A DNA stretch of 64,000 nucleotides, taken from NCBI GenBank assembly GCA_018241405.1, contig JAFEDY010000001.1, positions 1-64,000 on the forward strand. Direction: 5' to 3'. Source of the DNA: Pseudomonadota bacterium (GTDB lineage Bacteria > Pseudomonadota > Gammaproteobacteria > Burkholderiales > Burkholderiaceae_C). How positions within the stretch are numbered: the first letter of the stretch is position 1; each line of letters opens with the position of its first letter. Below, piece by piece: positions 1 through 2,503 of the stretch. The notes under the pieces were generated by a model that was not told where the DNA came from, ran no database searches, and saw only the letters and a list, made by a program, of their open reading frames with translations. A program made the position numbers and the translations under genes.

Positions 1-75
1 CAGGACGGGTCATGGGGCTGGGGCTGCATTTCCGAAATCGACTTACATCCGCCCTTACATCTGACGGAAAAGAAA

Positions 76-106
76 AAACCACGCTACTATTTAGATAGCA
101 GGGTTT
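76..106. terminator. Imperfect hairpin, possible bidirectional terminator
   Basis: AAACC (76-80) pairs with GGTTT (102-106) and GCTA (83-86) with TAGC (96-99), separated by a 2-nt mismatch. T-rich sequence follows on the plus strand and A-rich sequence precedes it, so it could end transcripts from either side. It lies just left of the leftmost copy of the tRNA-His repeat, so its gene would be outside the window. Confidence 0.4.
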
Positions 107-118
107 CCTTTGTTTACT

Positions 119-138
119 TGGGGTGGCTGATGGGACTC
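119..138 (+). repeat. Left attachment-core repeat (att)
   Basis: These 20 bases are identical to 2349-2368, which encode the CCA and the 3' acceptor and T-arm end of tRNA-His. Similarity stops at 139, as expected when integration at a tRNA 3' end duplicates only the crossover core. Confidence 0.75.
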
Positions 139-412
139 ACATCCCACAGCCGCAACCGGTTGATTTTCAAAGACTTTTTCGGCGGTGCGGTGGATTTCGA
201 CGGAAAAACGTGACACCTAGTCATGACACCAGAACCAGCTGCTGACCTGACTTCTTCCACCATAGAGTATGACGCAGCACCTGGAAGCGACGCACTTGTC
301 CTCGTAAAGCCGCACGTTGCGGCGCGGGTGCTCCTTGCGCTGGGAGGTACGAGTCATCCCCCAGGCTCTGGCCCCTTGCTCAAGACGCCCTATCGCTATA
401 GACGTCTTGTGC
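139..412. other. Non-coding left arm of the element
   Basis: No convincing gene is visible here. A 111-codon frame starting at 223 overlaps the next gene and has no recognisable product. The stretch holds the left arm repeat at 209-230 and leads into the promoter of the gene pair. Confidence 0.5.
209..230 (+). repeat. Left arm-type repeat of the integrated element
   Basis: This 22-bp sequence matches 2276-2297 at 20 of 22 positions. Each copy contains TGACACC twice, spaced 6 nt apart. The copies lie 70 and 51 bp inside the two cores in the same orientation, which suits integrase arm-binding sites. Binding itself is inferred. Confidence 0.55.
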
Positions 413-462
413 TTGCAAAAACCACGCCGATCGGCGATATTCGCAATTCACGAATAGCGAAT
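413..462 (+). promoter_or_regulatory. Promoter and candidate autoregulatory operator of the gene pair
   Basis: TTGCAA (413-418) and GATATT (436-441) are 17 bp apart. Over the -10 lies an inverted repeat, ATTCG (439-443) with CGAAT (451-455), followed by a further GCGAAT (457-462). It ends 10 nt before the ATG at 473. A palindrome on the -10 directly before a winged-helix gene suggests autorepression, as is known for AbiE-type systems; this is inference. Confidence 0.5.
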
Positions 463-472
463 TTCTCCGCAA

Positions 473-1021
473 ATGGACCTCAAACCGCAAGACCTGCTTG
501 TATTGCTGAAGGTGGCAGCCCACCCGCCCCAGCGATGGACGTACGTCGCGCTGGGTGATGCTCTGAGTATGAGCGCCTCCGAGGCTCATGCCAGCGTGAA
601 GCGGGCCGTGGCATCAGGACTTGCCGTGGCGGCGTCCCGGGCCGAATGGTCGCCGATTCGGCCAAACCTGCTGGAGTTCATGTTGCACGGCGTGCGCTAC
701 ATCTGGCCGGCCGCCGCCGGACCAGTAAAACGCGGCGTTCCAACTGCGTTCGGTGCCGAACCGCTGGCCAGCCAGTTGACAGCCGCACCAGGCGAGGCGC
801 CTGTATGGGCGCATCCCGAGGGCAAGGCAAAAGGGCCGACGCTTCCACCGCTCTATCGCACGGCTCCGCAAGCTGCTCTGGCCGACCCTTCGCTGCATCG
901 CCTGCTGGCCTTGCTCGACGCCTTGCGCACCGGTCGCGCACGCGAGCGCGGGCTGGCTGCCAAGTTGATGGAAGCCGAATTGATGCACTCTCACGATGAG
1001 GCGCCCGATGCGAGTAGATGA
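473..1021 (+). CDS. Winged-helix protein, putative antitoxin/regulator of a nucleotidyltransferase pair
   Basis: 182 residues. Residues 1-60 read as a winged-helix DNA-binding domain: predicted helices around LLVLLKVA, a wing after the tryptophan, and a recognition-helix-like SASEAHASVKRAVASGL. The rest is proline- and alanine-rich and matches no family I know. It overlaps the downstream nucleotidyltransferase gene by up to 26 nt and follows a palindromic promoter. This is the layout of AbiEi/AbiEii-like toxin-antitoxin operons, where the DNA-binding partner is the antitoxin. A plain MarR-like regulator is the alternative. The gene sits in a tRNA-integrated element, so it is probably acquired. 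Confidence 0.6.
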   Translation: MDLKPQDLLVLLKVAAHPPQRWTYVALGDALSMSASEAHASVKRAVASGLAVAASRAEWSPIRPNLLEFMLHGVRYIWPAAAGPVKRGVPTAFGAEPLASQLTAAPGEAPVWAHPEGKAKGPTLPPLYRTAPQAALADPSLHRLLALLDALRTGRARERGLAAKLMEAELMHSHDEAPDASR

Positions 1022-1694
1022 TCCGAATCTGCCGCAACTGCGGCAGATCGCTGAGGCACTGGGCGACCTACGTGAACAGGTGGTGTTCGTCGGCGGGGCC
1101 GTCGCCGGCCTGCTGGTGACCGACCCACTGGCCGATCCGGTGCGTGCCACCCGCGACGTTGATGCAGTGGTGAATGCCAGCCGAACCATGTTCTACCGGA
1201 TCGAGGAAGCGGTGGCGCAGCGCGGCTTTGCCCGCGACGTGACCAGCGAAGTGATCTGCCGCTGGGTGCATAAGGACTCTGGCATGTTGTTCGACCTGAT
1301 GCCAGTGGAGCCAGAGGTGCTGGGGTTCTCAAACCGCTGGTACCCATATGCGGTCGAAACCGCAGAGCCTACGGATTTGGGAGCTGGCATCACCATTCGG
1401 CTGGTCAGCGCAGTGGGTTTCGTTGCCACAAAGCTGGAAGCCTTCGCCGGCCGTGGCGGTGGCGACTACTTGAGCAGCCACGATATCGAAGATGTGCTCA
1501 ACATCGTCGACGGGCGCGAGGAGTTGGCAAACGAGTTGTCTACGGCCCCCGCCGAAATCCAGCACGCCGTAGGCGATGCTTTCAGCGGACTCCTGTCGGA
1601 CCCGAACTTTGCGAACGTTCTGCCAGGCATGCTTGCTGAGCCAGAACGGGCTGAACTGGTTACGCAGCGCATCAAGGCTATGTGTCAGCGATGA
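996..1694 (+). CDS. Nucleotidyltransferase, AbiEii-like putative toxin
   Basis: 232 residues from the ATG at 996; an in-frame ATG at 1008 would give 228. Residues 32-55 carry a glycine-rich GGAVAGLL and then TRDVDAVV, the GG...D-x-D signature of DNA polymerase-beta-like minimal nucleotidyltransferases. FDLMP and a later DIEDVLNIVDG helix are also typical of the AbiEii/DUF1814-like group. Known relatives attach nucleotides to RNA or tRNA, or inactivate protein targets. It overlaps the winged-helix gene, suggesting translational coupling. Its 3' end overlaps the truncated end of the integrase remnant on the other strand, implying a recombination joint near 1678-1694. Confidence 0.65.
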   Translation: MRRPMRVDDPNLPQLRQIAEALGDLREQVVFVGGAVAGLLVTDPLADPVRATRDVDAVVNASRTMFYRIEEAVAQRGFARDVTSEVICRWVHKDSGMLFDLMPVEPEVLGFSNRWYPYAVETAEPTDLGAGITIRLVSAVGFVATKLEAFAGRGGGDYLSSHDIEDVLNIVDGREELANELSTAPAEIQHAVGDAFSGLLSDPNFANVLPGMLAEPERAELVTQRIKAMCQR

Positions 1695-2274
1695 GGTCCG
1701 AGAACTCCTTGAACAGCACGCGCTTCTCAGCGACGGTTTCGGGGTTCTTCAGGCGCTTGGCCTCCTCTTCCAGATGCAGGTCGAGAGCCGCGCGGAGTTT
1801 GAGTCCCACATCATTGGGCTTCGGAAGGCTTGGCATGGCCCTGCCGACCAGCTGGGAAGTCAGAGCGAGGAGGTCTGCCGTCGCATCGGATGGCACCGGG
1901 CTGGCGGAAGCTTGGACCGGCAGGACTCGCGGCTGCAGCTTCGACTGCAAGGCCAGGACATCCTGCATGGCCTTCATCGCCTCGAGCATGCGGGCGTGAT
2001 CCTCGGGCCCATCAGACTAGGCCTTCCCAGCGGCCAGATCGAACTCGTATCGCTCGAGCTTCTTGCGGAAATCAGACAAAACGTCTCCCGAGATCAAGTT
2101 CAAACAGAACTTCAGCGCGAGGACCTTTGCCAGCTGGGGATTTTTGGTGCCCAGACTCAGCTGGGTCACTTTCCGCCTCCCAGTCGCGTCGAGCGATGAA
2201 GAGCGGACATAGTAGACGCCGAAACGATTGATCCCGAGGCGCAGGACCTTGATGTTCAGACCTTTGGATCGCAT
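1678..2274 (-). pseudogene. Truncated tyrosine-recombinase (integrase) remnant with in-frame amber
   Basis: From the ATG at 2274 (GTG at 2283 is an alternative) the frame runs 85 codons to a TAG at 2017-2019. It then continues in the same frame for about 112 codons to a stop at 1678. The N-terminal part is basic and begins like an integrase arm-binding domain. The part near LEEEAKRLKNPETVAEKR resembles the helical core-binding domain. The catalytic domain with the R-H-R-Y residues is absent; the frame ends where the nucleotidyltransferase gene ends on the other strand. Its position beside the tRNA-His core supports an integrase origin. Family assignment is from reading alone. Confidence 0.6.
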
Positions 2275-2275
2275 G

Positions 2276-2297
2276 CGTGACACCTAGTGGTGACACC
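2276..2297 (+). repeat. Right arm-type repeat of the integrated element
   Basis: Partner of 209-230, with the same twice-repeated TGACACC. It overlaps the GTG alternative start of the integrase remnant, so integrase binding here could also have regulated its own gene. Confidence 0.55.
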
Positions 2298-2348
2298 GCG
2301 ACCGCCTCAAGTCTGAAAATTTATTTCAAATCAACGTCTTAGGAACTG

Positions 2349-2425
2349 TGGGGTGGCTGATGGGACTCGAACCCACGACGACAGGAATCACAATCCTGGA
2401 CTCTACCAACTGAGCTACAGCCACC
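2349..2425 (-). tRNA. tRNA-His (GTG anticodon), CCA encoded
   Basis: The minus strand folds as a full cloverleaf closely matching other proteobacterial tRNA-His. It has the extra 5' G opposite the discriminator C, a TTGTGAT anticodon loop giving GTG, a GGTTCGAGTCC T-arm and an encoded CCA (2349-2351). The 3' end (2349-2368) is the integration core of the element to its left, and the gene is intact after integration. Confidence 0.95.
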
Positions 2426-2503
2426 GCAGCATTGCATTATAGCGCGATATTTTTGGGCTTCTGCCCTCGCGCAGGTGGTTGCGGCAATCTATATGCGGGT
2501 CCG

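Follow-up and report, generated by a model that had tools for sequence, protein, structure and literature searches.

Results

We found that a 2.2-kb element at the 3' end of a tRNA-His gene is quite probably a decayed integrative mobilizable element, that is, a cis-mobilizable element (CIME). It consists of two core repeats, two arms with twin sites, a broken integrase and two overlapping cargo genes. The element lies at the left edge of the window, the 64,000-nucleotide stretch of DNA that was analysed, which starts at base 1 of contig C11 in a genome of 3.72 Mb (71 contigs, 99.58% complete). Since the contig ends at window position 1, the left flank of the element is visible for 118 bp only. 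Judged by its relatives, the source is probably a betaproteobacterium. The integration target, tRNA-His (GTG), was located by ARAGORN at 2349-2424 on the reverse strand and is intact.

The proximal core repeat (2349-2368) is the 3' end of the tRNA-His gene, and the distal core (119-138) is identical to it at 20 of 20 positions, as a sequence-only reading of this DNA had stated. Exact repeats at least 1 kb apart reached no more than 16 bp in any of 500 first-order Markov resamplings of window 1-2500. The same reading had described matched 22-bp arm-like repeats, and these were found on the forward strand at 209-230 (distal) and 2276-2297 (proximal, overlapping the start of the integrase), with 91% identity. 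Each carries TGACACC twice with a period of 13 bp, starting at 211 and 224 in the distal arm and at 2278 and 2291 in the proximal one; six further occurrences of TGACACC in the 64 kb are all unpaired. When we searched for the arm pattern TGACACCTAGTNNTGACACC with at most one mismatch, it occurred at two places in the genome, which are the two arms, and in none of six congener genomes. This genome was also the sole carrier of the arm pattern in an order-wide sample of 389, the other 388 lacking it, and the pattern was not found in viral contigs (IMG/VR search). Arm repeats widespread away from att sites, named beforehand as evidence against the reading, thus did not appear in the genome itself, the congeners or the order sample.

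Other short repeats were seen near the ends. The word AAATCAA (2328-2334) lies beside the proximal core and its inverse TTGATTT (160-166) beside the distal core, and by eye similar words stand at like positions in several relatives; these are perhaps additional integrase or host-factor sites. A further twin repeat, CTTACATC, with a period of 12, occupies window 42-61, outside the distal core and the terminator. It may be the arm of a further element in tandem, lying past the contig end on the left. Twins of period 11 are present at a similar place in L006 and L075.

Six other genomes of the genus were examined, and the tRNA-His locus was located in each. Window 41-138 joined to 2369-2480 was collinear with G002, G003 and G006 over the terminator-like sequence and on across the tRNA, and these alignments showed scattered differences and small gaps without a larger break. 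G004 aligned over the same stretch with more differences, and G005 and G001 aligned only from about the tRNA end onward. Removing 139-2368 therefore leaves a sequence collinear with three congener loci, which indicates a true insertion, and the collinearity identifies 65-118 as the native, terminator-like sequence downstream of tRNA-His, displaced by the insert. The proposed comparison of tRNA-His loci in related genomes thus did yield sites without the element, and no related genome had the same content without the repeat at the left edge. That the repeats are coincidence or tRNA-like noise, with no element present, is vanishingly improbable: a 20-bp repeat was never reached in the resamplings, congener loci stand without the insert, and the core-arm layout recurs in four complete relatives and in L006. 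We ruled this explanation out on the resampling and the shared layout.

Between the cargo and the proximal core, ORF analysis and alignment revealed an integrase remnant comprising the N-terminal part only (1697-2283, reverse strand), whose frame continues to 1678 inside the cargo 3' end. The frame from 2283 to 1678 is open apart from an in-frame TAG at 2017-2019, ahead of which an 88-aa fragment is left. Similarity to full-length integrases stops at EKRVLFKEFSD. The stop codon and the missing catalytic domain bear out the earlier view that the integrase is dead. Its homology stops where the conserved cargo 3' end starts, and the last codons of the frame fall within that conserved end. With a frame open apart from one stop, the element may be young, and its decay not long-standing. 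We sought the rest of the integrase to the left of the cargo (139-420) and obtained no credible match to the integrases of relatives (best E 0.20). No transfer gene was present in the ORF list of the 2.2 kb or in a Pfam scan of its four main frames. We found no literature on DUF6538.

A phage origin, as satellite or prophage remnant, was rejected. The phage-related genes of such elements were not found in a PHROG search of the four frames (no match at E≤0.05), and neither the nucleotidyltransferase of the cargo nor the integrase N-terminus had a match in phage records. The integrase N-terminus likewise had none in plasmid records and had one partial match in viral contigs; this relative, L077, has no twin site upstream and no tRNA, and was set aside as a like element.

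Within the family, the 88-aa piece matched in 11 of 398 genomes, its own included. Among 13 relative loci (L018-L030), the fetched stretches held tRNA-His in seven, tRNA-Arg in three and no tRNA in three, so that 10 of the 13 integrase relatives lie at tRNA-His or tRNA-Arg. Ten of the 13 loci (L019 was read through L031) had a period-13 twin site where the integrase begins, with 8 or more consecutive bases repeated exactly; by eye, L025 and L026 have an imperfect twin site and L027 has none. The stretches tested were 79 to 170 bp long, and the background for such a run was 13 of 2000 random 120-bp stretches of the window. The window element belongs with the tRNA-His and tRNA-Arg elements that have a twin direct site, in most cases of period 13 bp, at the start of the integrase.

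Compared by eye, the motif itself differs from lineage to lineage. TGACACC is shared by the window and G062 and, with one change, by G340; TATGACCCC is found in G193, GTGGGAACCC in G242, G097 and one of the G034 loci, CGGGACACC in two of G034 and one of G386, and GTGGGACACC in G386 at tRNA-Arg. Across L018-L030, L032, L034, L035 and L074, the arm motif varied between integrase lineages and the spacing was constant at 13 bp (12 in L074). It is possible that the motif is an arm code that predicts which integrase fits which element. At L028, an integrase with its twin site adjoins a copy of the tRNA-His core in a stretch with no tRNA, an arrangement as expected for a tandem element.

The sequence-only reading had suggested a search for larger elements, and such elements, alike in arm layout, were found at tRNA-His in G193 (13.4 kb), G242 (13.9 kb), G097 (4.8 kb) and G001 (4.9 kb). 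Each is complete: both ends have the core and the twin arms, and the genes include one for a full-length integrase (Pfam Phage_integrase) and one for a relaxase (TrwC in G193, MobA/MobL in G242 and G097, Mob_Pre in G001). The integrase of G001 was undetected by the N-terminus of the remnant and its twin TGCTACACC has a period of 12; G001 is a more distant kind of relative. Twin arms at both ends of four complete elements indicate that such arms are the normal attP anatomy; their presence alone does not therefore point to mobilisation in trans. Judging from this common anatomy, the integrase of the ancestral element would have bound twin arm sites at both ends.

Partial relatives were also recovered. 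In G062, no second core was present within the 18.5 kb fetched, and in G340 the integrase extends to the contig end. L006, a metagenome-derived contig and the sole stretch matched in genome_contigs, has a distal end whose arm motif agrees with that of the window at 18 of 18 specified bases; the gene next to it is a different one. The distal-end pattern, which was built from ends already known, occurred in at least 6 of 398 genomes, an undercount. In G135 (L075 2224-7377), 5.2 kb separate two tRNA-His cores, and the search for an integrase gave nothing recognisable (best E 0.22); G135 was rejected as a second case of preserved arms, as there is no twin site inside its distal core. This stretch carries a 531-aa protein that is M10-type metallopeptidase-like by eye.

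The cargo is the regulator/nucleotidyltransferase pair proposed earlier and nothing else. Both proteins, encoded on the forward strand, match PADLOC models over most of their length: PDC-M21A (473-1021, 182 aa, E 2.5e-40), a helix-turn-helix (HTH)-like regulator and probable antitoxin, and PDC-M21B (996-1694, 232 aa, E 3.3e-64), a nucleotidyltransferase. PDC-M21B scored 22.4 bits against Pfam AbiEii, just under the cut-off of 22.5. A profile of 23 relatives matched the nucleotidyltransferase-like 5uvd in the PDB (E 0.00076) and then MenT1 8an4 (E 0.0032), and the predicted model (mean pLDDT 92.9) had MenT1 8an5 as its best Foldseek match (E 7.6e-07; TM 0.52 on the query, 19% identity). For PDC-M21A, the model (pLDDT 90.5) matched nothing in the PDB at E≤0.001, and the best of its weak matches were HTH regulators; the sequence had no AbiEi family match in Pfam or NCBIfam and only a weak MarR_2 match in Pfam. 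We found no literature on PDC-M21.

Upstream of the pair lies a conserved promoter/leader (409-472, forward strand), with TTGCAA (413-418) and GATATT (436-441) recognized by eye. An imperfect palindrome, ATTCGC..GCGAAT (439-462), overlaps the -10-like box and is well kept in the relatives printed; we regard it as a candidate autoregulatory operator. From sequence, the pair would be an autoregulated, toxin-antitoxin-like nucleotidyltransferase system and a candidate for phage defence.

Relatives of PDC-M21B were found in 42 of 398 family genomes, including this one, and a relative of PDC-M21A stood beside it at 28 of 29 relative loci examined. The ten closest loci printed, with L048, whose stretch begins at a contig edge, set aside, were compared at the DNA level. 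Similarity sets in at window 409-431 in nine of them and at 473 in L043, it runs out at 1651-1701, and the flanks are unrelated; 18 more distant loci gave short DNA matches or none. These limits define the module as the promoter plus two genes. No terminal repeats or target duplications were seen by eye around the operon in 10 relatives. Among the 11 closest cargo loci, none had tRNA-His in the fetched stretch and one had tRNA-Pro. The occurrence of the cargo in other contexts indicates that PDC-M21 spreads without this element. Against G292, a member of another genus with a 97% identical pair, dS was 0.17 (A) and 0.19 (B) and dN was 0.018 and 0.016, giving dN/dS of about 0.1 and 0.08. The low dN relative to dS indicates that both cargo genes are under purifying selection.

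Elsewhere, the pair has other neighbours. In L042 (1-1501, reverse strand) an HsdR gene directly follows it, and in a Mitsuaria plasmid record a DEAD/DEAH helicase gene touches the match. It is possible that the pair forms part of type I restriction loci. RptR regulates type I restriction islands (PMC12255303), and the portion of that article considered here draws no link between RptR and PDC-M21. One IMG/VR contig (L078 3613-4236) encodes a PDC-M21B relative with 42% identity.

Discussion

CIMEs have lost their integration and transfer genes and kept attL and attR (PMC5704250, in the portion considered). By this published definition, and judged by its sequence, the window element is a CIME. 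Its integration gene is lost through the TAG and the missing catalytic domain, no transfer gene is left in the ORF list or the four scanned frames, and identical 20-bp cores with twin arms at both ends mark attL and attR. An origin from an integrative conjugative element (ICE) or integrative mobilizable element (IME) is suggested by the relaxases in relatives of the same layout; no such gene is left in the window element. It does not have the integrase and mobilisation functions of its own that define an IME. We consider it a tidy, very small and well-preserved example of an already known type of decayed element, not a new system.

Like the CIMEs described in PMC5704250, it has lost genes, kept its att sites and sits at a tRNA 3' end, and the twin site outside it suggests tandem accretion; unlike them, it spans 2.2 kb only, its cargo is a single candidate defence pair, and its ends are known from sequence alone. 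The tRNA-His IMEs/ICEs of the same family (G193, G242, G097 and G001) share its target and the core and twin sites at both ends, and G193, G242 and G097 also share a related integrase, whereas all four have a full-length integrase and a relaxase, and arm motifs of their own (TATGACCCC, GTGGGAACCC and TGCTACACC). In Dehalococcoides, 15 of 31 ssrA islands have no integration module, and the authors suggest that those without an integrase are cis-mobilizable elements (PMC3146451). There too, a 20-bp repeat of the 3' end of an RNA gene frames integrase-less cargo; those islands, however, are larger, target tmRNA and belong to serine recombinases, as far as the text considered describes them. The cargo resembles PDC-M21, a PADLOC phage defence candidate, in its adjacent A and B genes and the match of both to the models, and differs in standing alone in a tRNA element, whereas in L042 HsdR adjoins it. 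It resembles MenAT and AbiE in its nucleotidyltransferase fold, with MenT1 as the best Foldseek match, and in its leading, overlapping regulator gene. It differs from them in its 19% identity to MenT1, in a score under the AbiEii cut-off and in a regulator without the AbiEi match that a type IV AbiE system has.

A probable history is as follows. An ancestor inserted at the tRNA-His 3' end, as the collinear congener loci show; its integrase, going by the anatomy of relatives, would have carried out recombination between the cores derived from the tRNA, with the twin arms of both ends as its binding sites. Acquisition of the self-contained PDC-M21 operon and a deletion would then have removed the integrase catalytic domain and any mobilisation genes. 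The junction of integrase and cargo is seen directly, and we infer the order of these events. The remnant would have been kept for its cargo, which is under purifying selection. The CIME reading is favoured by the collinear sites in G002, G003 and G006, the tRNA-His or tRNA-Arg location of 10 of 13 integrase relatives, the four complete elements, the stop of integrase homology at the conserved cargo end, the PADLOC matches, the purifying selection and a genome in which no other integrase of this type was found. Against it, the mobilizable ancestor is deduced from relatives, of which G001 is a more distant kind, and the element holds no trace of a relaxase; its nearly open integrase frame may point to a young element, and the contig breaks off at position 1.

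The sequence-only reading had proposed a minimal element mobilised in trans. The minimal element stood, with its cores, arms, dead integrase and two-gene cargo; the movement in trans gained no support, as we found no matching integrase in the genome and no second copy, and the cargo spreads without the element. The genome has five tyrosine-recombinase domains above the Pfam cut-off, none in a protein matching the N-terminal region of the remnant. Two candidates from this genome were rejected as helpers on comparison with the integrases of relatives: L082, with 25-27% similarity over 141-163 columns of the catalytic part, and L079, with 37% over 41 residues (E 0.026). Movement in trans is possible in principle, and an incoming integrase with the same arm specificity could excise the element, as its end sites look intact.

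It is unlikely that the element is a live non-autonomous one that needs nothing in cis beyond its cores and arms, is moved by the integrases of larger elements passing through with its arm motif, and has the defence pair as its pay-off. The cores are identical and all four TGACACC copies are intact despite the dead integrase, and L006 and G062 are examples of elements whose arm motif is identical or almost so. Yet no second copy and no matching integrase were found in the genome, the arm pattern is absent from the viral contigs and the other 388 genomes of the order sample, and searches of plasmid and phage records gave no match to the integrase N-terminus. It is quite doubtful that we see a minimal counterpart, for tyrosine integrases, of a MITE, needing two att cores and twin arms in cis, with passing elements of the same arm motif carrying the defence pair between hosts. 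On that reading, the 88-aa integrase fragment might also retain arm binding and influence a helper integrase.

A permanently fixed relic, its ends intact only through recent decay and its defence pair now a plain chromosomal gene pair, is likewise improbable. The dead integrase, the lack of a transfer gene, a cargo with its own conserved promoter under purifying selection and a genome in which no helper integrase was found all fit such a relic. However, cores and arms show no change at positions free to change, and sequence alone does not separate the relic from a CIME.

This CIME, probably a decayed integrative mobilizable element, is a compact natural substrate on which the cis requirements of a tRNA-specific tyrosine integrase can be worked out. 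It also shows a candidate defence pair that stands by itself at a tRNA gene now that its vehicle has decayed. In this family, an arm motif that varies by lineage, has a spacing of mostly 13 bp and is of the same type at both ends provides a simple rule for locating element ends. The same rule would predict which integrase could move which remnant.
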